Assembly (NCBI RefSeq): GCF_016126015.1
Contig: NZ_JAEFDB010000005.1
Coordinates: 1 to 64,000 of the forward strand
Source: Capnocytophaga periodontitidis
GTDB lineage: Bacteria; Bacteroidota; Bacteroidia; Flavobacteriales; Flavobacteriaceae
Direction of reading: 5' to 3'
Length of the DNA: 64,000 nt
In this document: positions 5,436 to 56,161 of the stretch, piece after piece
How the letters are laid out: every line of letters starts with the position of its first letter
Numbering within the stretch: the stretch's first letter is position 1
Made by a program: the position numbers and the translations under genes
The notes under the pieces: generated by a model
What the model was told of the DNA's origin: nothing
Databases searched by the model: none
The model's input: only the letters and a program-made list of their open reading frames with translations

Positions 5436-5480
5436 GGTGCGAGCCGCACGGGCAATTAAGGACTTTGACAAAGTGTAGCG
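5436..5480 (-). repeat. copy of the modular dispersed repeat (GTGCGGCTCGCAC plus CACTTTG module)
   Basis: Read on the minus strand this is cgCTACACTTTGtCAAAGTCC followed by TTAATTGCCCGTGCGGCTCGCACC. The same modules, in the same order, occur near 26862-27098, 28329-28527, 29763-29975 and 52226-52263. It sits directly upstream of the 120-residue gene and would form its 5' leader. Confidence 0.7.
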
Positions 5481-21240: not shown

Positions 21241-21281
21241 ACGTGCGGCTCGCACCTTTGCAAAAGGTGCGAGCCGCACGT
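21241..21281. terminator. 19-bp perfect inverted repeat made of the dispersed repeat core
   Basis: ACGTGCGGCTCGCACCTTT faces its exact complement across a 3-base loop, between the convergent genes ending at 21231 and 21311. It is the dispersed GTGCGGCTCGCAC core in head-to-head arrangement. It can act as a bidirectional terminator stem, though the T tracts are weak. Confidence 0.6.
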
Positions 21282-25590: not shown

Positions 25591-25610
25591 ACTGCCCGTG
25601 CGGCTCGCAA
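25591..25610 (+). repeat. dispersed repeat core upstream of the first lipoprotein
   Basis: ACTGCCCGTGCGGCTCGCAA follows simple TAACAATTAACAAATAAC spacer sequence and lies 14 bases before the ATG at 25624. The same core precedes the next two lipoproteins and the barrel gene at similar distances. Confidence 0.7.
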
Positions 25611-26900: not shown

Positions 26901-27098
26901 TGATAATCAATTACTTTTATAGTATGTTATGTAGGAAAGCCAGCGATAGCTGGGTATGTGCTGCAAACGCCCTTATAGTATAAAAACTTTTTGCAAACGC
27001 CCTCACAATATAAAAACTTTTCGGATAACCTCTTTATAATTAACAAATTAATAAATTGCCCGTGCGGCTCGCACCAAACTGCCCGTGCGGCTCGCACC
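26901..27098 (+). repeat. modular dispersed repeat, copy A, between lipoproteins 1 and 2
   Basis: The order is GATAATCAATTACTTTTATA, AGTATGTTATGTAGG, the hairpin CCAGC-GATA-GCTGG, two GCAAACGCCC units each followed by an AATATAAAAACTTTT-like stretch, a TTAACAAATTAATAAATT spacer and two GCCCGTGCGGCTCGCACC cores. Most of this 200-base block recurs before copies 2, 3 and the barrel gene and singly elsewhere. Confidence 0.75.
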
Positions 27099-28328: not shown

Positions 28329-28527
28329 CAACACTTTGGCAAAGTTTCACACTTTGCCAGAGTTGATTGTAATTGATTGTCCTGATAATCAATTACTTTT
28401 ATAGTATGTTATGTAGGAAAGCCAGCGATAGCTGGGTATGTGCTGCAAACGCCCTTACAATATAAAAACTTTTCGGATAACCTCTTTATAATTAACAAAT
28501 TAACAAACTGCCCGTGCGGCTCGCACC
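28329..28527 (+). repeat. modular dispersed repeat, copy B, between lipoproteins 2 and 3
   Basis: It holds CACTTTGGCAAAGT and a second CACTTTGCCAGAGT, then the AT-rich module (28383-28415), the CCAGCGATAGCTGG hairpin, one GCAAACGCCC unit, a TTAACAAATTAACAAAC spacer and one GTGCGGCTCGCAC core ending 14 bases before the next ATG. Confidence 0.75.
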
Positions 28528-29762: not shown

Positions 29763-29975
29763 GCTACACTTTGGCAAAGTTGATTATCTTGATGATCAAT
29801 CACTTTTAGAGTATGTTGTGTAGGGGCGTTTTGCAAACGCCTTTATAGTATAAGAACTTTTTGCAAACGCCCCACAATATAAGAACTTTTTGCAAACGCC
29901 CTTGTAGTATAAAAACTTTTCAGACAATCTTTTTATAAATTAACAAATTAACAAACTGCCCGTGCGGCTCGCACC
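29763..29975 (+). repeat. modular dispersed repeat, copy C, upstream of the barrel gene
   Basis: It holds CGCTACACTTTGGCAAAGT, the AT-rich module with GTAGGGGCGTTTTGCAAACGCC instead of the CCAGC hairpin, two more GCAAACGCC units with AATATAAGAACTTTTT, then a TTAACAAATTAACAAAC spacer and the GTGCGGCTCGCACC core. A second partial core (TTGGCTCGCAC) follows at 29984-29994. Confidence 0.75.
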
Positions 29976-44368: not shown

Positions 44369-46756
44369 ATGGCAAAGAAAAACACAATCCCCCTTAAATT
44401 CGAGGCATTAGACAAAGAACTACAAAACTTATTGTACAGCCGTGACATTTCTGGGCTGATTTCAGTACTCAAAGAGGGGAAAAATCCACTACACTTAGAA
44501 CAACTCACTCAGTTAGATGTGAAGAGCTGTAAAAATTTAGGTTTCCCTATACTGTGGTCGCTATATGAAAATGATTTTATCACATTTGAGGAGGATTTTT
44601 TAATAGAAAAATTCGGAGATGCCTTATATTTATTGAACAAACATAAAGAAATAGAGTCCTTTATTCTTAAAAGACCCCGTATTGCTAAAGAAATAGGTGA
44701 AAAACTGCCTTCCTATTTCCTTGAAAAAAGAGATATTTCTGTTACAGAATATGAAAAATTACTTGATTTTGGGGCAAAAGGATTTTTCAAAGGTACCCAA
44801 GTGCTACCTAACTTCTTAGAGGCATTGATCAGCCCGCTAAAAACCTATACAGCCAATACCTATTGCCGTCTTATAGAGAGCTGCAAACCCTCTGCGGAAG
44901 AACTCCTCCCTTCTCAGTACACCCTCTTTGCCCTGCTCAGTAGTGACAAGACCTCGGTAGTGAACTTTGTGATGAAGCTCATCAAAGAGATAGCCGGCGA
45001 AAAGGACTTTGATTTCCAATCTTTTGCCAATAACTTTGCCTTGTGTTTTGCTACCCCAAAAATCGCCAAATCTCAACTCATAGGTTTGGATATCTTAGAA
45101 AAGTACTACAAAAAGCAAGCCCCCTCCAATCTCGACTACCGTGAGCAATTAGCGGTACTCTTCACCGTCCCAGATGTGAAGCCCCAAGAAAAAGTCGCCA
45201 ACCTCCTCACCACCTATTTTAACCACGAAGGTCTCCCCGAAGTCATCGCCCCTTACAGCGATTACCTAAAAGGCAAAGCCCCAAACCTCCTCCAATCCTT
45301 ACCCTCGCCCAACTCATCAGAGAACTCCAAAAACTCCGAGAACTCCGAAAACTCCCAAACTGCCTGTGCGGCTTGCACTTCCCACACCTCCCATAATTCC
45401 CACAGCTCCCACAGCTCCAACCCCCAAAAAATAGCCTGCCCCCTAACCCCTGAAGACCTTCTCTTTCTCCTTGGTGACTGCCTCCGCGAGCGTACGGCTG
45501 CTACTATCGACCTTTTCTTTGAGGGCTTTAACCAGTTGCAAGATGACTTCCCTGCTGACTTCAAGGAGCAGTTAGCACCTTACCTCAAGCAGTTAGAGAG
45601 ACACTGGAATGGCATTGCCTCGGTGCCTATTTTGCGTTGGTTTTTACAGCGTTGGACGGGGGATAAAAAGAAACTAAACAAGGAGGACGAAACATTTTTC
45701 CTCACTACATTGCCTTACCTATATCACAAAGCCCAACATCTGCTGGAAAAACTCAAGGAGAAGAATAAACTCCCTTTCCTTTCCACCCCTACACACGCCC
45801 CTTTCTATATAGAAGCAGAGGTGCTGATGGATAGGCTCTTACAATACGAGGCTCAAGGTGAAAACCCCGACCTCCACGACTTGGTAGTGGCTTGCAACCG
45901 ACTGCTCTTTAAGGACGTTTCGGCAGCAGCCAAAGAAAAAGCCCAAAAGCTCAAGGGTGCCTACACCCCTGCTATTCAGTACTATATAGGACTGACAGAT
46001 AAAGTGCAACCTACTGAGGAACTTTTGCCTCTTTGGACGCAAATCACCCGTATCAAGTACCCCGATAAGGAGTTCGTAGAGTTTACCAATACCTCGGCTA
46101 AGGATTTCCCTACTGTGGTAAAGCCCTTTATGATTGATTTCTGGATGAAAACGCGCAACCAAAGTGATGTTACCTTCCATTACCTGAACTTAGAAGACAA
46201 TTGGAATAACAATTTTGATATGAAGCAGAAGCCTACAAAATATCCTTTCCCGTATTACAACACAGGCAACAGTCGTCGAGGCTGGAGCACGGATATATTG
46301 TACCAATGCAGTCTAAACCCACACTATGCTGAGGCGCAAATCCTCCGTTATATAGCCTCTTACGCCAAGGGCAATGAGTCGTACGATATAGAGTATATGC
46401 AAACGTCTATGCAAGTGTTGCTCGAGAACCATTTGCCTATCTATCACAGTGGTTGGCTGTTTGTGGCTGCCGCCTTGCTCTTTGAGAAAAAGCCCACCCG
46501 CGATATGGCAGCCGCTTATATCTTAGAACATCTGGAGTATGGTACGAATCTCAACCTATTGGCGCAATATATCGGCAAACTCTTAGCCGAGCAATACGCC
46601 CCCATCGCCCGCTTTGTGGAGTTTTTGGATATCCCTACCCGTGACCCAAAAATAAAGGCTTTCCAAAAAAGTGTGGTAGGAGCTTACCTCCCTTTAGCTG
46701 AAAAATTAGATAAGAAACCTACCAATCACAAGAAATTAGTAGCTTTTATCAATTAG
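44369..46756 (+). CDS. large helical-repeat protein, DUF6493-like, paralogue 1
   Basis: The 795-residue soluble protein is mostly helical and resembles the family I know as DUF6493, often found near SWIM zinc-finger genes. Segments shared with the two next genes include QIAKSQLIG-type IAKSQLIGLDILEKYYKKQA, TTYFNHEGLPEVIAPY, LTPEDLLFLLGDCLRE, CNRLLFKDVSAAAKEKA and, near the end, VEFLDIPTRDPKIKAF. Residues about 309-357 form a low-complexity Ser/Asn/His/Cys linker (NSENSENSQTACAACTSHTS) coded by the dispersed repeat and simple words. It lacks about 90-110 residues relative to its sisters, chiefly in the N-terminal part. Confidence 0.7.
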   Translation: MAKKNTIPLKFEALDKELQNLLYSRDISGLISVLKEGKNPLHLEQLTQLDVKSCKNLGFPILWSLYENDFITFEEDFLIEKFGDALYLLNKHKEIESFILKRPRIAKEIGEKLPSYFLEKRDISVTEYEKLLDFGAKGFFKGTQVLPNFLEALISPLKTYTANTYCRLIESCKPSAEELLPSQYTLFALLSSDKTSVVNFVMKLIKEIAGEKDFDFQSFANNFALCFATPKIAKSQLIGLDILEKYYKKQAPSNLDYREQLAVLFTVPDVKPQEKVANLLTTYFNHEGLPEVIAPYSDYLKGKAPNLLQSLPSPNSSENSKNSENSENSQTACAACTSHTSHNSHSSHSSNPQKIACPLTPEDLLFLLGDCLRERTAATIDLFFEGFNQLQDDFPADFKEQLAPYLKQLERHWNGIASVPILRWFLQRWTGDKKKLNKEDETFFLTTLPYLYHKAQHLLEKLKEKNKLPFLSTPTHAPFYIEAEVLMDRLLQYEAQGENPDLHDLVVACNRLLFKDVSAAAKEKAQKLKGAYTPAIQYYIGLTDKVQPTEELLPLWTQITRIKYPDKEFVEFTNTSAKDFPTVVKPFMIDFWMKTRNQSDVTFHYLNLEDNWNNNFDMKQKPTKYPFPYYNTGNSRRGWSTDILYQCSLNPHYAEAQILRYIASYAKGNESYDIEYMQTSMQVLLENHLPIYHSGWLFVAAALLFEKKPTRDMAAAYILEHLEYGTNLNLLAQYIGKLLAEQYAPIARFVEFLDIPTRDPKIKAFQKSVVGAYLPLAEKLDKKPTNHKKLVAFIN
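45292..45441 (+). repeat. in-frame repeat-derived linker in paralogue 1
   Basis: The stretch consists of AACTCCGAGAACTCCGAAAA-type words, the dispersed core (CTGCCTGTGCGGCTTGCACT, 45360-45379) and CCCACAGCTCCCACAGCTCC-type words, all kept in frame. It interrupts otherwise conserved sequence between the GKAP and LTPEDL positions. Confidence 0.8.
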
Positions 46757-46769
46757 TCACTATTCACTT

Positions 46770-49433
46770 ATGAAAGAAAACTTACTTTCCGCCATTAAGG
46801 CACACGATTTTACCGCGATACGTACTATTTGCTTTGGTCTTTTTGAAGAGGAACGCCTAAAGCTAAAGGTGTTTTTCCTTGATACGCCTATCAAGCAAAT
46901 GTATGATATGCCCAAAAGTTGGGCTAAGAATGTACCTAACGATCGTATAGTAATGGCTTATGCCTTTATGTGTTTGAGTGATCAAAGAGAAGAAATACTC
47001 CATTTTGAGCGAAAAAATAATATCAGTCCTTGGTATGCAAAAGGGGTGTTTTACGATTTCCTTTCCACAGCTTTTTATCCAGAGCTTTTAGCGCTTATCC
47101 AAGCTCCTCAAGGGGCTTACTTGAAAGAAGAATTGCCCCAAATGTATCGAGAAAATGCAGAATATATCTCTTTTGAGATGCTTTGGGTGCTGTATAAAAT
47201 GGATTTGATACCTTTTAATGAAAAATTGTTCGTTGAAAACTTTTATCACAAGAATGTTTCCTATCGTGAAGAACCTTTTTTCATCGATTTGTTGTTACAA
47301 TACCCTGAAATAGCCACTCAAATCCTTGCAGCAGCCCCAAAATATATCTATACTTATCTATATGATACTGAATATATCTTGGCAATGTATCACATTTTGG
47401 CTAAGAATAACTATTTCACAAATCGCGATATTGTAAAGCAATACCTCGAGGCTTTGTTAAACCCTTGGAAGAAAAACATCCTCAATGCCTATTGCCGTTG
47501 GATAGAAGTAATCAACCCTACTGCCGATGAAGTAATTGAAAACCAATACACTTTCTTTTCCTTACTCAGCTTGGGCAATACAGCCCTCATCAATTTTGCG
47601 ATGAAGCAACTGCAAAAAGCTACTAATGCTTCTGCTTTTGATTTTCAGTCTTTTGCCGACAACTTTGTCCTATGCTTTGCTACCCAAAAAATCGCCAAAT
47701 CCCAACTCATAGGGGTAGAAATCTTAGAAAAACACTATAAAAAACAAGCCCCTACCCATCCCGACTACCGCGAACAATTGGCGGTACTCTTCACCGTCCC
47801 CGATACCCAACTCCAAGAAAAAGTCGCTAGTCTCCTCACTACTTATTTCAACCACGAAGGTCTCCCCGAAGTTATCGCCCCTTACCGCGATTACCTAAAA
47901 GGCAAAGCTCAAGCCCTCCTTGCAACCCTAAGTCCATCAGAAAATTCTGAGAACTCCGAGAACTCCCCAACTGCCTGTACGGCTCGCACCTCCCACAGTT
48001 CCCGCACCTCCCAAACTGCCCGTGCGGCTCGCACCCTAACCCCTGAAGACCTCCTCTTCCTCCTCGGCGACTGCCTTCGTGAGCGTACTGCGGAGACTAT
48101 TGACCTCTTTTTTGAGGGAATTGTGCAGCTGCAAGAGAGCCTTCCGGCTAATTACACTAAAGAGTTGGCTCCTTATCTTAAAAAACTGATGAAAAGTCAT
48201 TATTTGGATAGTGTTACAACCATAATAAAGGGCTTTTTGTACTGCTATTCACATCAAAAACCTCTTGAAATACCTCCTTATCAATACACTTATGAGGAGA
48301 GTAATGCTTTGAGAGAAAAACTTGATGAAGCAGCTTTTGAGGAGTATCTTCTTTGGAATAGGTTGTATAAGCATAAGATTTTTATGCCATTCCTCTTTCA
48401 CAAGGCACAACTCACCTTGAAATATCTTAATGAAAAAGAGCTGTTGCCATTCCTTTCTACTCCTACACACGAGCCTTTTTATATAGATACCGAAATATTT
48501 GTGGATAAACTACTGCAATATGAAGCTGTGAATAAGCAACCAGACCTTCACGACCTTATAGTGGCTTGCAACCGTCTGCTTTTCAAAGAAGTTTCGGCAG
48601 CAGCCAAAGAAAAAGCGAGACAACTCAAAGGAGATTATGCTAAAGCTATTCAATATTATTTAGGACTTACCGATGAAATACAACTAACTGAAGAACTTCT
48701 CCCTCTTTGGGCGCAAATCACTCGCATCAAACACCCCGATAGAGAATTTCCAGAATTTGAAAACACTTCAGCTAAGGATATTCCCAGTGTAGTAAAGCCT
48801 TATTACATAGGTTATGGATGGACAAAATGGAGAGACAGAGATATGTTTACCTTTCATAATTACGATATAGGTTATGATGAGAAAAGCGAAAAAGGCTATT
48901 GGATAGAGCACTATCGAAACTCTTTTTCGCCCCTTTACTACAATGCTTGTGGTGGTAGTACACCCCTATCGACAGAGGTGAATTACCTATTGAGTTTGAA
49001 CCCTCATTACCCTGATGCTATTCTCTGCGGTTATATAGCCAATAATGCTTTTGGGGCAGAAGAAATACGCAATATGCAGCTACCATTAGAAGCTGTTTTG
49101 CGTTATGATTTGCGCGTGCGCCATAGCGGTTGGCTGTATATAGGAGCGTGTTTGTTATACGACAAACGTCCGTCGCGAGATTTGGCTTATGAATACATAC
49201 TTCAAGCCCTTGCAAGAGGTGAGGATTTGCATTATGTAGGACGCTATTTAAGTGATGCGTTGGCTATGCATTTTAGTCCAATCAATCGGTTTGTAGAGTT
49301 TTTAGACCGACCTACCCGCGACCCTAAAGTAAAGGCTTTCCAAAGGAAAGTTGTCGCCCTTTATTTAGAAGAAACGAAGAAGCAGGACAAACTCCCTCGC
49401 AATCACAAAAAATTAGCAGAATTTAGTCATTAG
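46770..49433 (+). CDS. large helical-repeat protein, DUF6493-like, paralogue 2
   Basis: The 887-residue paralogue starts 13 bases after the previous stop. The N-terminal part (LLSAIKAHDFTAIRTICFGL) resembles the third copy more than the first. Conserved blocks are FQSFADNFVLCFATQKIAKS, LTPEDLLFLLGDCLRERTAE, EVSAAAKEKARQLKGDYAKA, IQYYLGLTDEIQLTEELLPL and RHSGWLYIGACLLYDKRPSR. The linker at about 385-422 carries two in-frame copies of the dispersed core, read as TACTARTSHSS and TARAART. The architecture suggests a scaffold for protein interaction with a variable hinge. The function is unknown. Confidence 0.7.
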   Translation: MKENLLSAIKAHDFTAIRTICFGLFEEERLKLKVFFLDTPIKQMYDMPKSWAKNVPNDRIVMAYAFMCLSDQREEILHFERKNNISPWYAKGVFYDFLSTAFYPELLALIQAPQGAYLKEELPQMYRENAEYISFEMLWVLYKMDLIPFNEKLFVENFYHKNVSYREEPFFIDLLLQYPEIATQILAAAPKYIYTYLYDTEYILAMYHILAKNNYFTNRDIVKQYLEALLNPWKKNILNAYCRWIEVINPTADEVIENQYTFFSLLSLGNTALINFAMKQLQKATNASAFDFQSFADNFVLCFATQKIAKSQLIGVEILEKHYKKQAPTHPDYREQLAVLFTVPDTQLQEKVASLLTTYFNHEGLPEVIAPYRDYLKGKAQALLATLSPSENSENSENSPTACTARTSHSSRTSQTARAARTLTPEDLLFLLGDCLRERTAETIDLFFEGIVQLQESLPANYTKELAPYLKKLMKSHYLDSVTTIIKGFLYCYSHQKPLEIPPYQYTYEESNALREKLDEAAFEEYLLWNRLYKHKIFMPFLFHKAQLTLKYLNEKELLPFLSTPTHEPFYIDTEIFVDKLLQYEAVNKQPDLHDLIVACNRLLFKEVSAAAKEKARQLKGDYAKAIQYYLGLTDEIQLTEELLPLWAQITRIKHPDREFPEFENTSAKDIPSVVKPYYIGYGWTKWRDRDMFTFHNYDIGYDEKSEKGYWIEHYRNSFSPLYYNACGGSTPLSTEVNYLLSLNPHYPDAILCGYIANNAFGAEEIRNMQLPLEAVLRYDLRVRHSGWLYIGACLLYDKRPSRDLAYEYILQALARGEDLHYVGRYLSDALAMHFSPINRFVEFLDRPTRDPKVKAFQRKVVALYLEETKKQDKLPRNHKKLAEFSH
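47921..48034 (+). repeat. in-frame repeat-derived linker in paralogue 2
   Basis: It contains GAACTCCGAGAACTCC words and two dispersed cores, CTGCCTGTACGGCTCGCACC (47971-47990) and CTGCCCGTGCGGCTCGCACC (48016-48035), joined by TCCCACAGTTCCCGCACCTC. The reading frame is intact. Confidence 0.8.
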
Positions 49434-49450
49434 TCACTTTTCACTTAATT

Positions 49451-52156
49451 ATGAACAAAGAACTTATCTCAGCCCTTAGAACAGAAAACTGGGCAGAAAT
49501 CCGCCGCATTGCCTTTGCGCTCCCCGAGCAGGAAAAGGCACAAATCAAAAAACAAACCCATGACAAAGATTGGGAAAAACTCTTTGAGAAAAAGCGCCTT
49601 GCCTACGAAACTGAGTACCTCATCACCTATCTGATGATGTGTGTATGTCATAGCGTAGAAGAACTGCTAAGTGTAGAAAAACAGCTAAATTTCACGTCTG
49701 TAAATGTAAAGAGCTATCATACACGTATTAAGTATCCTCTTTTCTTTTTGAATTCCCAGCACTCCCAAGCCTTTATGGATTTTATCCACACCCCCGAAGG
49801 GGCGTATATGATAAAGGGTGTCCAACAGGTTTTTGAGCAATCCCCGCGTAGTTTTTCTATCGAAATACTCTTAGTGCTCTATACAGAGGGGATTATCCCT
49901 TTCAATGAGGAGATTTTTGTCAAGAACTTATATGATATTGAGTACAGCCGTACACAAGAAGCCAAAGCGGCTGAGGTACTCCTCCAGTATCCTGAGCTGG
50001 CAACGCGCGTGATTCCTCATACGGCTAAGTATATAGATTATACCCTTAGAAGCAACTTGGAATGGCAAAAAGTCTTTACCCTGCTTTGTAAGAAAAACTA
50101 TTTCCCTGATAAGAGCTTCATAACCAGCTTTATTGAAGTATTGCTCAACCCTTGGAAAAAGAATGTATTAGATATGTACTGCCGTTGGATTCAGGGACTT
50201 GCCCCCACCGAGGAGGAGTTGCTCCCAAGCCAGCACACGCTCTTTGCCTTGCTAACCTTGGACAAATCATCGCTTATCAACTTTGCGATGAAGTGCATTG
50301 CTCAAATAAGCACCCATCCTGCTTTTGATTTCCAAGCCTTTACCGACAATTTTGCACTTTGCTTTACCGTCCAAAAAATCGCTAAATCGCAACTCATAGG
50401 GGTAGAAATCTTAGAAAAATACTATAAAACACACCCCCCTATAAATATAGATTACTGCGAGCAATTGGCGGTACTCTTTACGATACCTGACGTGAAGCTC
50501 CAAGAGAAAGTAGCTACTCTCCTCACTACCTATTTTAACCACGAAGGTCTCCCCAAAATCATCGCCCCTTACTGCGATTACCTAAAAGGCAAAGCCCAAG
50601 ACCTTCTAAGTCCTACCCCCGTTCCCCCTTCCGAAGGGAAGGGGGCAAACCTCAATCAGGATAATAATCTTTCATCTCAATTTGCAGATTGTCCCCCTTC
50701 GGGGGTTCGGGGGCTTGAACTTCACACCTCCCAAACTGCCCGCACTCCCCTTTCCTTGGGAGAGGGGTCGAAGGAGAGGATCCTCTTCCTTCTCGGCGAC
50801 TGCCTCCGTGAGCCTGCAGCTCATACAATAGATGTCTTCTTGGAGGGGCTTATCACCTTGCAAGACAACTTCCCTACCGATTGGGCAAAGTCCCTTTCGC
50901 CCTATATCAAACAGCTCACCAAGCGAATAGACAAGAAAATCCCTACCGATATAATCCTCTTGGGAGTTTTGCGTGCGCTGATAGACCGCCGTCCTTTAGC
51001 ACTTGACCCTAAGTGTCGTTATACGTGGGAAGAACTCTGTAAAAAGCGCGAAAAGCTCTCCGAAAAAGAGTTTGAAGCCTATACGCAGGATTATTACTTA
51101 GGCAATGCCCGCCAAGTCCTGCCGTTTCTTTTCCGCAAGGGGCAAATCGTCATTGACTTCATCCTCCAGCACTGCCACTTGCCGTTGCTCTCTACCCCTA
51201 CGCGCCTGCCTTTTTATATAGAAGCAGAGGTATTGGTGGATAAGCTCTTGCAATACGAAGCGCAAGGTAAAGCCCCCGATATTGACGACCTCATTGTAGC
51301 TTGCAACCGATTGCTTTTCACAGAAGTTTCGGCAGCAGCCAAAGAAAAAGCGAGACAACTCAAAGGAGATTATGCTAAAGCCATTCAGTATTATTTAGGT
51401 CTTACAGATGAAATACAACTAACCGAAGACCTCCTCCCGCTTTGGACACAAATCACCCGCTTAAAACACCCCGATAGAGAGTTCCCAGAGTTTGCTGCCA
51501 CTTCAGCTAAGAATATTCTGGGGGTAGTAAAACCTTACCTAATTGGCTATGGATGGCAGGAAGGTGACGGTCATAAAAAATTTACTTTTGGATACCACAC
51601 CGAGTGGGTAGGGGTAAGTTATACAGACCTAAAGAATGCCTTCCCGTATCGCTATTACAATACCAATGGTGGGAACTCGCCCATCAGTACTATTTTTGAG
51701 TATAAGATAAGCCTCAACCCTCACTACCCCGATGCGATGTTGTGTGACTATATCAGCACTTGGGTTACGGGCAACGAAGTGCGTGAAATTCGCAATATGT
51801 CACTGCCTTTGGAAGTGCTTTTGCGCTACGACATTAGGGTACGCCATAGCGGTTGGCTCTATATAGGTACGGCTTTGTTGTTTGAGAAACGCCCTTCACG
51901 GGATTTGGCGTATGAATATATCTGTCAGGCAATTACTCGCGAGGAAGACCTCAGTTACCTCAAGACCTATCTCGCTCAAGTCCTCGCTTGGGATTTTCTC
52001 CCTATCACTCGCTTTATAGAGTTTCTCGATCGTCCTGCTCACGACCCTAAAGTAAAAGCCTTTGGAAAAGAAGTAGTGAGATTGTATTTAGAAGAAGTGA
52101 AGAAGCAAGAAAAACTACCGAAGAATCATAAGAAGTTAGTGGAATTTAGCGATTAA
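49451..52156 (+). CDS. large helical-repeat protein, DUF6493-like, paralogue 3
   Basis: The 901-residue paralogue starts 17 bases after the second. It has the same order of conserved blocks (FQAFTDNFALCFTVQKIAKS, TTYFNHEGLPKIIAPY, FLLGDCLREPAAHTIDVFLE, EVSAAAKEKARQLKGDYAKA, VRHSGWLYIGTALLFEKRPS). Its linker at about 385-443 is different in content (PTPVPPSEGKGANLNQDNNL, CPPSGVRGLEL, TPLSLGEGSK), coded by other GC-rich inverted repeats plus a partial dispersed core. The last gene of the operon, it is followed by repeat copy E and a convergent gene. Confidence 0.7.
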   Translation: MNKELISALRTENWAEIRRIAFALPEQEKAQIKKQTHDKDWEKLFEKKRLAYETEYLITYLMMCVCHSVEELLSVEKQLNFTSVNVKSYHTRIKYPLFFLNSQHSQAFMDFIHTPEGAYMIKGVQQVFEQSPRSFSIEILLVLYTEGIIPFNEEIFVKNLYDIEYSRTQEAKAAEVLLQYPELATRVIPHTAKYIDYTLRSNLEWQKVFTLLCKKNYFPDKSFITSFIEVLLNPWKKNVLDMYCRWIQGLAPTEEELLPSQHTLFALLTLDKSSLINFAMKCIAQISTHPAFDFQAFTDNFALCFTVQKIAKSQLIGVEILEKYYKTHPPINIDYCEQLAVLFTIPDVKLQEKVATLLTTYFNHEGLPKIIAPYCDYLKGKAQDLLSPTPVPPSEGKGANLNQDNNLSSQFADCPPSGVRGLELHTSQTARTPLSLGEGSKERILFLLGDCLREPAAHTIDVFLEGLITLQDNFPTDWAKSLSPYIKQLTKRIDKKIPTDIILLGVLRALIDRRPLALDPKCRYTWEELCKKREKLSEKEFEAYTQDYYLGNARQVLPFLFRKGQIVIDFILQHCHLPLLSTPTRLPFYIEAEVLVDKLLQYEAQGKAPDIDDLIVACNRLLFTEVSAAAKEKARQLKGDYAKAIQYYLGLTDEIQLTEDLLPLWTQITRLKHPDREFPEFAATSAKNILGVVKPYLIGYGWQEGDGHKKFTFGYHTEWVGVSYTDLKNAFPYRYYNTNGGNSPISTIFEYKISLNPHYPDAMLCDYISTWVTGNEVREIRNMSLPLEVLLRYDIRVRHSGWLYIGTALLFEKRPSRDLAYEYICQAITREEDLSYLKTYLAQVLAWDFLPITRFIEFLDRPAHDPKVKAFGKEVVRLYLEEVKKQEKLPKNHKKLVEFSD
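50603..50779 (+). repeat. in-frame repeat-derived linker in paralogue 3
   Basis: The stretch is built of inverted GC-rich words (CCCCCTTCCGAAGGGAAGGG, CCCCCTTCGGGGGTTCGGGG, CTCCCCTTTCCTTGGGAGAG) and a partial core (AAACTGCCCGCACT, near 50734). It is in frame throughout and unlike its sister linkers in sequence. Confidence 0.75.
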
Positions 52157-52225: not shown

Positions 52226-52351
52226 ACACTTTGCCAAAGTTTCCTGCCCATGCGGCTTGCACCTTTAGCAAAGTGTATTTTATAGATAATCAATTATTTT
52301 TAGAGTATATTATGTAGGAAAGCTAGCGATAGCTGGGTATGTGTTCAAACA
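52226..52351 (+). repeat. modular dispersed repeat, copy E
   Basis: It holds CTACACTTTGCCAAAGT, a GTGCGGCTCGCAC variant (CCATGCGGCTTGCACC, 52248-52263), the AT-rich module with AGTATATTATGTAGG, and the hairpin CTAGCGATAGCTGG. It fills most of the 294-base gap between the convergent paralogue 3 and the 726-residue secreted protein gene. Confidence 0.75.
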
Positions 52352-52450: not shown

Positions 52451-54631
52451 CTATAAAGTACCGTTTTTCATTTGCAATAAAGTCTTTTGTAGGCTGTCTA
52501 AAAGCTTTTTCTTGTCTTTTTCTTGTGCCGCTTGCACGGCTTTTTCTTCTATTTTTATAGCTTCGTCTTTCCGGTTGGTAGCGTATAGCAAGCAGGCGTA
52601 AGTATCGAGGTAATAAGGGTCATTCTCTCTGAAATCGCATATAGCCTCCATCCACTTCGTAGCTTTAGAGAGTAAGGTGGCGTCATTACGGCGCGTTTCG
52701 AAGATATAATAAGCAATAGTGTTAGCCTGATTTGCCCATACATTGCCATAAGAATACCAATCGGAATAATACCCATTCTTAGGAAATACCTTGTTGATAC
52801 CTTGCACAAAATTGCCTTTCCCCTGTGCGATAACTCCCTCTATATAAGGTACGTAATAATCAATAGCCGCTTGCTTGTCTTGGTCTAACAAATAGTATAT
52901 ATAACCCAGTGCCGAAGTCATCTTTTTAGTGACTGCCTCTTCGTAAATAGGTCTAATCTCTTCAAGAGGTAGTACTTTTTCTTTTTCTAAGTCATTAATG
53001 GCCTCTTGCACAGTCGAGTCGTATGGCTCTATTTTCTTTTTAGAGCTGATATTCACGTCTTTATCAATAGCTTCGTTATAGGCTTTAATGGCTTGGCTGA
53101 ACTTCATCAGGTAGGCAATGGTTTGTAGCTTGTCTTTAGCTGCGACTTTTTTATCCTCTATCAGATAATTTCGGTAGCTATAAAGGTTTCTGACGGTCAT
53201 TCTGGCAAATAAGGGGTCTAAAACTGTATCGTTTTGATGACTTGCCGCCACTCTGCGCCATTGGTAAGTCAGTTGGGCGGGGGTGGTTTTCAGTTGGTAA
53301 ATAAGTTTTTTATTTTTGAAGTCGAGTGCGTAATACTCTTGCTCAAATTTTTTGCGGTCGGTAAGCAAATATAAGCTCAAATCATAGTTTTTGAGGTAGG
53401 TGTAAAAGAGCGCTTCCACTTCTTTTATAGGAGCCTGAGGGTTAGCAAATAGCTGGTCGATGTGGCGCGCTACTATGATGCTATTGAAAAGGGTAGGAGC
53501 CGTGTTTTTTCCGAAGAAATCATCGCGCTGGGCTTCGGCTATGGTACTTTCTTGATAGTAAAGCACGTGTCCCTCGTAATCTACAAAAATCACTTGGTTT
53601 TTATCAGTGGCAATACCGTGTTTTTTCAGCCACTGCTCATCACCTTTAGAAGTGGTATAAAACTGATAAGTAAAAGGTAGTTTATCGCTTTTCTCTATCT
53701 TGTAAGATAGTTTTAGCAACTCAAACTCTTTGTCGGCTTTGGGGTTCTGCGGTTGGTGAAGGATAGCGAGCAACTGCTGAGTGGGTTTTACGCGTTGTAT
53801 CGCTTTTTCAATATTCTTGCTATCGCTCACCACTAAGGTGGCGTTTATTTTTGCTTCCTCTTCTTCCTCTTTATAATCTTCGAGTATATCGTCATAATCA
53901 TCGATTACACAACCCAGTTCCCTATTCGTTTTAACTTCTTTAAAAGACAGATGTTCCCAGTTCTTTACACGTGTTATCTCGTTGGGATAGAGGGGGGTAG
54001 GGATAAGCTTTTGGTATATATCAGGTCTTTTATTGCCTGTTTCCATAAGTGATAGCTCGCCTGTTGAAGCCTCATATACTCCTATAAATTGATTTCTTAA
54101 AGCACTGTTCTCTCCCAAGAAAACAACTTCTAAGGCATTGGTGTTTTTGCCTATATAAAAAGTGTTGATAGTTACCTCGCCGTTATTTTCGCGGTATTCA
54201 GCAGCAAAGCTGTTTACCAAATAGAGCTTTTCGGTACGCGGAATTTCGATATGAAGGGTATCATTAGCGAACTGGTCTTTCGCCTCCTTATACAGATGCA
54301 GATAAGTGACGCCCCCTTGTTCGTTTTCGTAGCCTACATAGATAAACAAGGTAGAAGATTCCCAAATCATTCCTTTGGGGCCTATGAATGAGAGTTGCAG
54401 CTGCTGGGAGTTGCCCTGCTGTTTGTGTAGCATAAAAGAGCGGTCGGCGTTTAGTATCACGAGGTTGCCATCGCGTCTGTAGCTACCTGAGTATTTTATC
54501 ACATCGAAAGTATTATCAGCATTGAGCCGGATACTTTCTCTTTCTCTATCGTTTTTATAAATCCCGACAAGGCTATCTTGAGCATATAGCCCACTGGCAA
54601 AGAGGGTGAAAAGTAGGAGGAGGTTTTTCAT
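52451..54631 (-). CDS. secreted protein with thioredoxin-like and TPR-like parts
   Basis: The 726-residue product has a signal peptide (MKNLLLLFTLFASGLYAQDS). The N-terminal 200 residues are beta-rich. Residues about 265-380 resemble a thioredoxin-like fold without a CxxC pair (NATLVVSDSKNIEKAIQRVK, KHGIATDKNQVIFVDYEGHV). The C-terminal part is helical with TPR-like character (YLDTYACLLYATNRKDEAIK, then IEEKAVQAAQEKDKKKLL). This layout recalls Bacteroidota periplasmic thioredoxin-family proteins but lacks the redox cysteines. It is divergent from the SWIM gene. Function unknown. Confidence 0.7.
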   Translation of the reverse strand: MKNLLLLFTLFASGLYAQDSLVGIYKNDRERESIRLNADNTFDVIKYSGSYRRDGNLVILNADRSFMLHKQQGNSQQLQLSFIGPKGMIWESSTLFIYVGYENEQGGVTYLHLYKEAKDQFANDTLHIEIPRTEKLYLVNSFAAEYRENNGEVTINTFYIGKNTNALEVVFLGENSALRNQFIGVYEASTGELSLMETGNKRPDIYQKLIPTPLYPNEITRVKNWEHLSFKEVKTNRELGCVIDDYDDILEDYKEEEEEAKINATLVVSDSKNIEKAIQRVKPTQQLLAILHQPQNPKADKEFELLKLSYKIEKSDKLPFTYQFYTTSKGDEQWLKKHGIATDKNQVIFVDYEGHVLYYQESTIAEAQRDDFFGKNTAPTLFNSIIVARHIDQLFANPQAPIKEVEALFYTYLKNYDLSLYLLTDRKKFEQEYYALDFKNKKLIYQLKTTPAQLTYQWRRVAASHQNDTVLDPLFARMTVRNLYSYRNYLIEDKKVAAKDKLQTIAYLMKFSQAIKAYNEAIDKDVNISSKKKIEPYDSTVQEAINDLEKEKVLPLEEIRPIYEEAVTKKMTSALGYIYYLLDQDKQAAIDYYVPYIEGVIAQGKGNFVQGINKVFPKNGYYSDWYSYGNVWANQANTIAYYIFETRRNDATLLSKATKWMEAICDFRENDPYYLDTYACLLYATNRKDEAIKIEEKAVQAAQEKDKKKLLDSLQKTLLQMKNGTL

Positions 54632-54747: not shown

Positions 54748-54778
54748 TTTGTTAATTAACAAATTATCCCTATCTTTG
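54748..54778 (+). promoter_or_regulatory. promoter of the SWIM gene
   Basis: TTTG (54748-54751) and TATCTTTG (54771-54778) are 19 bases apart. The upstream sequence contains GGCAAATTTGCTAATT, like the palindrome in the dprA region. The transcript start would fall near 54785, supporting the ATG at 54812 over the frame beginning at 54749. Confidence 0.65.
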
Positions 54779-54811
54779 CCCCTCACACAAATCAACAAAT
54801 CGACAAATCAA

Positions 54812-56161
54812 ATGAACGACTTTGAATATGCTTATCCGTTTGCCTCTGTGATAGAAGAGGCGAGCGCTCACGAGAAGAATTTTATCTTTTCGCACTGTTC
54901 AGAACTCAAAGAAGACAATGCAGTGCCTTGTTTCTTCTGGGGGAGTATCACTCAACCTTTTGTGGTGGCTAAGTGTCTTGCTACACTGGCGAAGACCGTA
55001 GCCTCTCAGTTTGCTATCGCCCCAGGAGTGCTTGCAAAATTGCGTGACCCCATTATCTCGGTGGGGAATGGTGAATTGCTTTTTGAGGGCTTCTCCTCTT
55101 GCAATAGCGTCTATGCCCGTGTAGGGTTGCGCAACGATGTGTTAGACGGTGATTTTCTCCAAAGTGGTTGCACCAATATCGATTTCAACGATATAACCGT
55201 GCGTGCTTTCAATGCGGTAACCGCTTCCGAGAAAATGGTGCTTAGTGTAGGACAAAAGCAGACACACTTTATTACCGAGAAACACAAAACTGTAGAGAAA
55301 AAAGTAACCCTCCCCAACCGCTGGATCAAAGGCTTGGGTAATGTACAAGTATATCTTTCGGAGATGGATTTGGCATACCGCCTCAATAAAGCTGAAGCCA
55401 TACAGCTCTTCCGTTCTTTGCCTAAACAAGCCGTGAAAAATGATTATTATTTGGTAAAACGCGGTGTTGGTTACACTTTTGCGCCTACCCCTACAGCGGG
55501 AGCTATCAAAATAGGAGGAGTGCACCGTCTCAACCTCTTACAAAGTTTACTTCTGCTTGCCGATAGTCTTTATGTATATCGCAGTAGCAGTGAGCAATCT
55601 GTTGCTTTTGTGTTGCATTTCAAAGGGGTAGAGATGCTTTTCTTACTTTCGGATAATGTATATCGAGGCTTTTCGGGCGAAGGAAAATACTTGGAGAATA
55701 TGATTGAAGAGGTACCTATGGAATGGCTCGTGGGGATTAACAATTTCTTCAAAACTAACGAAGTGTTCTCACCAGCAATGGTAGCTATTGAAAACGATGT
55801 GAATATGGGTACAATGGCAACCCTACAAGCATCGCTTTCGAGTATCGGACTCTTGGGCTACAACCTCACCGATGGCAATTATTTCTACCGTCGTTTGCCT
55901 TTTAAACCGCAGCGATTGATAAGTCTGAACCCGCGTTTGCAAAATGCCAAAAAACTCACTGAAAATAATGAAGTACAAATCGTAGAACAACGCGGTGATT
56001 ATGTGAAAGCCAATGTAAAAGGAACAGGAGGGGTTACCCATACCGTTATTCTTGACGGCGAGAAAGCACAATGCACTTGCAATTGGTACACCAATCACCA
56101 AACAAACAGAGGGTTGTGCAAGCACATTTTAGCTACCAAGATGATAAGTCAGAACAATTAA
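54812..56161 (+). CDS. SWIM zinc-finger protein
   Basis: The 449-residue protein carries a C-terminal SWIM motif CxC-x12-CxH (Cys 421 and 423, Cys 436, His 438: AQCTCNWYTNHQTNRGLCKH), which binds zinc and mediates DNA or protein contacts. The N-terminal 400 residues are unassigned (FEYAYPFASVIEEASAHEKN, LPNRWIKGLGNVQVYLSEMD). In other bacteria comparable SWIM proteins sit with DUF6493, MoxR-type ATPase and von Willebrand factor A genes. Here only the three DUF6493-like genes are near, with no ATPase or VWA gene in the window. A joint role is inference. Confidence 0.8.
   Translation: MNDFEYAYPFASVIEEASAHEKNFIFSHCSELKEDNAVPCFFWGSITQPFVVAKCLATLAKTVASQFAIAPGVLAKLRDPIISVGNGELLFEGFSSCNSVYARVGLRNDVLDGDFLQSGCTNIDFNDITVRAFNAVTASEKMVLSVGQKQTHFITEKHKTVEKKVTLPNRWIKGLGNVQVYLSEMDLAYRLNKAEAIQLFRSLPKQAVKNDYYLVKRGVGYTFAPTPTAGAIKIGGVHRLNLLQSLLLLADSLYVYRSSSEQSVAFVLHFKGVEMLFLLSDNVYRGFSGEGKYLENMIEEVPMEWLVGINNFFKTNEVFSPAMVAIENDVNMGTMATLQASLSSIGLLGYNLTDGNYFYRRLPFKPQRLISLNPRLQNAKKLTENNEVQIVEQRGDYVKANVKGTGGVTHTVILDGEKAQCTCNWYTNHQTNRGLCKHILATKMISQNN

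Follow-up and report, generated by a model that had tools for sequence, protein, structure and literature searches.

Short hairpin repeats that are dispersed through the spacers of Capnocytophaga genomes have probably entered coding sequence on several occasions, surviving in frame within flexible linkers of proteins. This is our reading of a 64,000-nucleotide stretch of the Capnocytophaga periodontitidis genome (the window), in which three tandem paralogous genes carry a variable linker, or hinge, between their DUF6493 and DUF7824 domains. In this family the hinge would already have existed when the repeat arrived, and the repeat would then have been shared among the sister genes. The original prediction, made from the sequence of the window, had proposed that repeats invade or expand at a tolerant hinge. 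The tolerance is borne out, in that spacer DNA is also coding here, the hinge is predicted to be disordered, and its length changes by whole residues; creation of the linker by the insert is not supported. Below, G numbers denote genomes (G000 is the window's own genome, in 55 contigs) and L numbers denote genome stretches or loci.

Contents of the three hinges

The paralogues and the features of their hinges are as follows.

44369..46756, + strand: paralogue 1, 795 amino acids, DUF6493-DUF7824-DUF7825 (open reading frame (ORF) list and domain search)
46770..49433, + strand: paralogue 2, 887 amino acids, DUF6493-DUF7824-DUF7825, modeled as mostly helical with a disordered hinge
49451..52156, + strand: paralogue 3, 901 amino acids, DUF6493-DUF7824-DUF7825 (ORF list and domain search)
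45008..45291, + strand: pre-hinge stretch with similar counterparts in the other paralogues, at 47637-47920 (85%) and 50324-50607 (80%)
45272..45463, + strand: paralogue 1 hinge, with ENS 9-nucleotide units, one core unit and SHS 9-nucleotide units
45366..45378, + strand: core copy with 1 mismatch, in frame (TACAACT), paralogue 1
47901..48056, + strand: paralogue 2 hinge, with ENS units and two core units 45 nucleotides apart
47977..47989, + strand: core copy with 1 mismatch, in frame (TACTART), paralogue 2
48022..48034, + strand: exact core copy, in frame (TARAART), paralogue 2
50588..50779, + strand: paralogue 3 hinge, with a second hairpin repeat and only a remnant of the core
50693..50705, + strand: second dispersed hairpin, CCCCCTTCGGGGG, in frame, paralogue 3
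50736..50745, + strand: core remnant CTGCCCGCAC, the core unit minus 9 nucleotides, paralogue 3 (direct reading)

Alignment of the three paralogues confirms that the linker lies at an equal position in each, is in frame, and differs from copy to copy. It is 64, 52 and 64 residues long in paralogues 1, 2 and 3 when the conserved ends are counted; the lengths of 50, 38 and 59 given originally are trimmed equivalents of these. The core repeat, GTGCGGCTCGCAC, had been predicted inside every paralogue, which holds for paralogues 1 and 2. In the hinge of paralogue 3 there is no core match at up to two mismatches, and in its place we found the remnant CTGCCCGCAC plus the other hairpin, CCCCCTTCGGGGG. 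Five exact copies of this second hairpin occur in the window and the retrieved stretches of the same genome (180 kb), one in the paralogue 3 hinge, three in spacers (L005, L019 and L024:2110) and one in another gene (L024:965); most of them are embedded in CC[AG]GCTTGTCCCCCTTCGGGGG. The filler was likewise thought to be of one kind in hinges and spacers. Words of CTCCCACAGCTCCCAC (up to two mismatches) do adjoin spacer cores in L004, L005, L015 and L024, but the GAGAACTCC (ENS) word, at the same tolerance, turned up nowhere but in DUF6493 hinges when the stretches from G000, G034 and G035 were scanned.

The hinge is predicted to be disordered: in an AlphaFold2 model of paralogue 2, based on 23 alignment rows, residues 391-420 have predicted local distance difference test scores of about 24-31, compared with about 70-90 for the helical flanking domains. 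NCBIfam gave no match for any of seven proteins searched, PADLOC none for any of the three paralogues, and a sequence search of solved structures had a best match of only E 0.054. Foldseek returned just two matches at E ≤0.001, both alpha-solenoids with template modeling scores below 0.2, and a literature search on DUF6493, DUF7824 or DUF7825 found no papers. Two more copies of the family lie on the same contig at approximately 91.5-96.9 kb, and several Capnocytophaga species carry multiple DUF6493-family paralogues. Beyond the genus, DUF7824 was present in 1 of 118 genomes (from a family draw of 120). Adjoining the cluster, at 54749-56158 of the window, is a SWIM zinc-finger protein that matches the PADLOC model SWIM_XIII (E 7.2e-56).

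The core as a dispersed hairpin

Capnocytophaga spacers contain two or more kinds of short, dispersed hairpin repeat, and the core belongs to one of these. At up to two mismatches the window holds 13 copies where 0.37 are expected, a number reached in none of 100 shuffles. There are 45 exact copies in the whole genome and none of the reversed control, and 14 of 20 Capnocytophaga genomes contain the core in 1 to 89 exact copies. The copies in the window that lie outside the hinges are listed here.

5437..5449, - strand: core copy in a spacer
21243..21279: a pair of cores, mutually inverted, in a spacer
25598..25610, + strand: core copy with 1 mismatch in a spacer
27062..27097, + strand: two tandem core copies in a spacer
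28514..28526, + strand: core copy in a spacer
29962..29974, + strand: core copy in a spacer
52250..52262, + strand: core copy with 2 mismatches in the spacer after paralogue 3
52525: core match with 2 mismatches, antisense, inside a 726-amino-acid ORF (52451-54631); this match may be due to chance

The heart of the repeat is a hairpin, GTGCG-GCT-CGCAC, with arms of 5 base pairs (bp). Its consensus is ATTGCCyGTGCGGCTCGCACC, a constant part of approximately 18-21 bp accompanied by variable filler, and direct reading shows the unit ACTGCCCGTGCGGCTCGCACC to be free of stop codons in all six frames. In spacers the core is often flanked by CTTTGNCAAAG arms, arranged in tandem, or set within arrays of simple words such as CTCCCACAGCTCCCAC. 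The arms covary: among 87 copies in the window's genome, 9 changes are compensated on both sides (shuffle mean 1.8; none of 5,000 shuffles reaches 9), and 18 arm pairs are broken (shuffle mean 26.0; none of 5,000 is as low). These copies were collected from the genome itself and not from the retrieved stretches, which had been picked by exact cores.

The orientation of cores relative to neighboring genes varied among genomes. In spacers between co-directional genes the core is mostly in the sense direction in G000 and G035 (43 of 57), and not in G034, G009 and G010 (27 of 61). Convergent and divergent spacers hold 14 and 4 cores, respectively, in G000 and G035, and 1 and 42 in the other three genomes. 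A literature search with the core string matched only an unrelated paper on Dicer-2, and a search for Capnocytophaga spacer repeats gave none among the matches listed.

Hinges across the genus

We scored a hinge core unit as a 21-mer with up to five mismatches. Such units are present in 15 of 25 hinges from eight Capnocytophaga genomes: 4/5 in G000, 4/5 in G007, 5/5 in G018, 1/4 in G013 and 1/1 in G012, with none in G011 (0/1), G015 (0/3) or G008 (0/1). Five truncated gene copies yielded no hinge boundary, and visual reading was used for the G014 and G004 hinges and for one from G008. The same linker recurs in other species, but only within the genus. In all 15 core-bearing hinges the units lie in codon phase 0, and where there is more than one they are spaced 18, 27 or 45 nucleotides apart. 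Units of LLATLSPSENSENSENS or LSPSENSENSENS followed by TACAART-like units are common to paralogues of G000, G007, G012 and G018, and a related form occurs in G013.

Hinges that lack the core are filled in other ways. Those of G015 contain GGAGAGGGG hairpins and that of G008 has GTGAAAAGTGAAAAG-like words, while the G011 hinge and parts of the G013 hinges have no evident repeat. Core-free hinges of G011, G013, G014 and G004 are 39-54 residues long as against 44-64 for core-bearing ones; because the lengths are similar, the linker appears to be older than the repeats. In G015 the hinge itself is the only exact GGAGAGGGG copy, which does not support the idea that each species fills its hinge with its own commonest repeat. 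That hairpin is found in 10 of 20 Capnocytophaga genomes. The hairpin CCCCTCTCC-N-GGAGAGGGG has 40 copies in G017, compared with 0-3 per genome in the remaining 19.

The hinge also changes length. Three orthologue pairs share 90-98% identity in the rest of the protein, and in each of them the two hinges differ in length by 6 whole residues; the remainder aligns without gaps, a duplication of 46 residues in one G007 gene excepted. Hinge gaps were seen in 9 of the 10 orthologue pairs examined. The duplicated segment, of approximately 46 residues, lies inside the C-terminal part of the G007 paralogue L059.

Repeats inside other genes

Apart from the DUF6493 hinge, exact cores are rare in genes. 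We examined 230 of them (45/45 in G000, 47/47 in G035, 66/69 in G034, 3/7 in G007, 9/9 in G008, 18/18 in G009 and 42/89 in G010), and only 9 fall within ORFs scored as coding, whereas positions drawn at random from those stretches do so in 30-64% of cases. One of the nine, L192 (175 amino acids), was rejected as a gene, as it consists of simple-word filler and has no Pfam match. Of the remaining eight, five are DUF6493 hinges (two in G000 and three in G035). By coordinates, 4 of the 7 cores of G007 and 2 of the 4 cores of G012 (assumed to correspond to G036) also lie within DUF6493 genes.

The cores in other genes are read in different phases. In the DUF6493 hinge the core itself is read in phase 1. 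L001, a conserved gene with a weak match to the phage family phrog_3671 (E 1.8e-4), reads it in phase 0 (SPVRLAP), and the orphan ORF L002 reads it in phase 2 (SPCGSH). In a ParB-like phage-type gene of G008 (L281:999-1727) the core is in phase 1, inside a stretch of 10 residues. Orthologues lack these inserts: the core is absent from all five aligned orthologues of L001 (a sixth, partial match in G012 was not alignable and was left out), and the 10-residue stretch is missing from all three aligned orthologues of the ParB-like gene, with a clean gap in the one that is 71% identical.

An example in a central metabolic enzyme concerns the second hairpin.

L024:632-1903 (G000:C44, approximately 193.7-195.0 kb): 2-oxoacid dehydrogenase E2 acyltransferase, with lipoyl, E3-binding and catalytic domains

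The linker between the lipoyl and E3-binding domains of this enzyme is well known to be flexible. It is here that the copy of CCCCCTTCGGGGG at L024:965 lies, in frame (PTTPACPPSGERRQSE, CPPSGERR). In G018 (C. sputigena), whose E2 is 93% identical (L360), the linker instead contains a core with one mismatch, in phase 0 (PPVRVAP). This linker, in an enzyme gene of single-copy type, is thus a second one to have acquired different spacer repeats, the exact CCCCCTTCGGGGG in one species and the core in the other. Fifteen of the 17 E2 linkers read hold neither repeat, their best core and best hairpin matches having at least four mismatches; the linkers of G003 and G014 were left out, and G008 has no close orthologue.

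Module exchange and probable gene conversion

Separate invasion of the three paralogues, as originally envisaged, does not agree with what they share. The LSPSENSENSENS/TACAART form is common to paralogues of four genomes and the flank before the hinge has been homogenized, so descent, duplication and gene conversion would explain most of the hinge repeats. In the 60 codons before the hinge, paralogues of the same genome agree at 155/226 fourfold sites in G000, 82/134 in G007, 162/236 in G018 and 32/52 in G015; other segments of the G000 paralogues agree at 50/110, 60/166, 45/120, 139/310 and 149/396. Between G000 and G015 the pre-hinge block agrees at 117/259 sites, which argues against pure codon constraint. 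Judging from these patterns, the three paralogues do not seem to represent three invasions, and their repeats would be due mostly to descent and gene conversion.

In addition, two members of the family have swapped N- and C-terminal modules, with the hinge as the joint. G013_L0411 is such an exchange, with a break at column 515 (the hinge spans columns 418-516), 324/377 agreement to the left and 604/643 to the right, and an identical break with a second pair of parents. G015_L0351 is another, with a break at approximately column 422 (271/356 and 446/542). The G013_L0411 hinge has no evident repeat, and that of G015_L0351 contains GGAGAGGGG hairpins. Among the other parent triples, G000_b showed only a weak break at column 516 (250/410 and 352/507), and five broke elsewhere.

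Such exchanges raise the possibility that hinge repeats are selected as recombination sites, serving module swaps and the diversification of tandem paralogues. The peak of fourfold agreement just before the hinge, the two exchange breaks at hinge edges and the multiple paralogues of several species are what this explanation would lead one to see. We nevertheless regard it as unlikely: neither exchanged gene has the core in its hinge, genes that are not part of an array (E2, L001 and the ParB-like gene) carry repeats as well, and any linker between modules would tolerate exchange.

Origin of the in-gene repeats

We return to the entry of spacer hairpins into coding DNA followed by survival in flexible linkers. 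Copies of the hairpins most probably enter genes by a copying accident, which would be either template switching or gene conversion with a spacer copy as donor. They would persist when the net length change is divisible by three and they fall within a flexible linker. For the DUF6493-DUF7824 family, entry would have been into an already disordered hinge, probably before several of the species split. The repeat would then have spread among sister genes through duplication and gene conversion, while slippage and recombination may have reworked the hinge by gain or loss of 9-, 18- and 27-nucleotide units and by replacement with other repeats. The linker is presumably translated, and by default we would take it to be neutral.

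Several observations weigh against this account. The homogenized pre-hinge block was not seen between the G013 paralogues (17/45). Between species the block agrees as well as it does within a genome (421/592 for G000-G018 and 304/453 for G000-G007), so the block may be old or may cross species. A clean break at the hinge occurs in only 3 of 9 parent triples, involving two genes, and the hinges of both exchanged genes are free of the core; exchange therefore does not need the core. The DUF6493-family genes of G008 contain stop codons. L002 has no homologue in 20 genomes, which makes the case for phase 2 within the genus weak. ENS words are absent from spacers in the G000, G034 and G035 stretches, which were chosen around cores, and the 87 copies used for covariation include matches with up to three mismatches. 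Finally, the Y1_Tnp transposase (PF01797), a candidate for moving such repeats, was found in none of nine Capnocytophaga genomes, among them the four with the most cores, compared with 5 of 7 other genomes in the same search.

This last result also bears on the suggestion that the core is a repetitive extragenic palindrome (REP) mobilized by a REP-associated tyrosine transposase. The size, the hairpin, the dispersal and the mainly intergenic location all fit, and REPs inside genes have been described (PMC3733652). With Y1_Tnp missing from all nine genomes and the GTAG/CGTC tag absent from the consensus, mobilization of this kind is improbable, although an unrelated enzyme, or one no longer present, may have been involved.

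Selection on the peptide would provide a different account, in which TACAART/ENS is a functional linker that spread with the paralogues and its likeness to spacers is incidental. The single codon phase of all 15 core-bearing hinges could be cited in its favor, as could the three closest pairs, in which substitution identity in the hinge is about that of the flanks. Common descent would account for the single phase, however, and unrelated genes carry this DNA in other reading phases, unrelated sequence fills the same hinge in other species, and the hinge is predicted to be disordered. We consider this explanation highly improbable. Least credible of all is an artefact of assembly or gene calling: repeats are prone to mis-assembly and G000 is in 55 contigs, but core-bearing hinges appear in the assemblies of five genomes, which makes an assembly artefact very unlikely, and conserved domains flank them in frame.

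Spread beyond Capnocytophaga

At least 106 stretches in the genome collection contain the 18-mer GCCCGTGCGGCTCGCACC, although some of these, for example in Lentzea, are ordinary coding matches. In 20 genomes selected for holding GCCCGTGCGGCTCGCACC, we counted exact copies of the 13-mer, and found 42 in a Nitrospirae metagenome-assembled genome (MAG; G023), 19 in a Bacteroidales MAG (G033) and 15 in a Sedimentisphaerales MAG (G022), with no copies of the reversed control in any of these. A Thermoguttaceae MAG (G020) has 9 versus 0 reversed, and a Chthoniobacterales MAG (G026) has 12 versus 1. In five genomes (G030, G031, G032, G038 and G039) the count did not exceed the reversed control. The setting ATTGCC.GTGCGGCTCGCACC is common to many Bacteroidales and some Nitrospirae copies. 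In the Bacteroidales MAG G033 an MnmG/GidA ORF (L349:3-806, - strand; GIDA E 1.1e-88) has an in-frame core, read as SACGSH, close to its N-terminus.

A bolder reading, which we offer tentatively and regard as doubtful, is that ATTGCC.GTGCGGCTCGCACC is a hairpin without a known transposase, near-identical across phyla (Bacteroidota, a Nitrospirae MAG, and probably Planctomycetes and Verrucomicrobia MAGs). It would be copied by a host process, be readable in any frame, and have been turned into protein repeatedly at flexible linkers, including those of central enzymes, with one Capnocytophaga linker doubling as the exchange joint of tandem paralogues. The presence of a near-identical element in distant phyla raises the question of how it is copied.

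Comparison with known systems

Length-variable repeats in disordered linkers characteristically gain and lose units of whole codons, and the Capnocytophaga hinge behaves in the same way. It differs in that its unit is partly a hairpin dispersed through the genome, and in that there is no switch of frame. The absence of a frame switch also separates it from the contingency loci of phase variation, as the core units of the 15 core-bearing hinges keep one codon phase.

The closest precedent is provided by the Rickettsia palindromic elements (RPEs), described in PMC2229807 as dispersed palindromic repeats of 105-146 bp that occur in spacers and, in frame, in unrelated protein genes. The Capnocytophaga repeats are also found in spacers and in frame in unrelated genes. 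They belong to another phylum, their constant part is approximately 18-21 bp with variable filler, and most of their exact in-gene copies are in one hinge of one tandem family. The same source mentions in-frame fusions between ORFs and small non-autonomous repeats, the miniature inverted-repeat transposable elements Correia/NEMIS, ERIC and YPAL (PMC2229807). Ours are likewise small and fused in frame, but shorter; CTTTGNCAAAG arms flank many of the spacer copies and not the in-gene copies read, and the orthologues are too diverged to reveal a target-site duplication.

GTAG/CGTC REPs are described as hairpin repeats of 20-40 bp. Section 15 of PMC3733652 places them mainly between genes, with some in ORFs and clusters that encode 43-82 residues; the paper counts the shorter RPE-4 and RPE-6 as REPs and reports no obvious correlation with the associated tyrosine transposase (PMC3733652). 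The Capnocytophaga core is a dispersed, mainly intergenic hairpin of such a size, but its consensus has no GTAG or CGTC tag, none of the nine genomes has a Y1 transposase, and its in-gene copies lie outside the DNA-repair genes emphasized for REPs (PMC3733652). Lacking the tag, the transposase and the length of RPEs, the repeats resemble RPEs and REPs in the way they work, and membership of either group is not shown.

The original prediction had called intergenic repeats turned into protein a rare case. Given the precedents of RPEs and intragenic REPs, the conversion of spacer DNA into protein in Capnocytophaga is uncommon, not unprecedented. What it adds is a well-resolved case, with repeat-free orthologues, of intergenic hairpins becoming protein outside Rickettsia and the classical bearers of REPs. 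Two linkers, the DUF6493 hinge and that of E2, have each acquired at least two unrelated spacer repeats, in different species. It becomes testable whether flexible linkers act as safe harbors for spreading DNA and as exchange joints between tandem paralogues.

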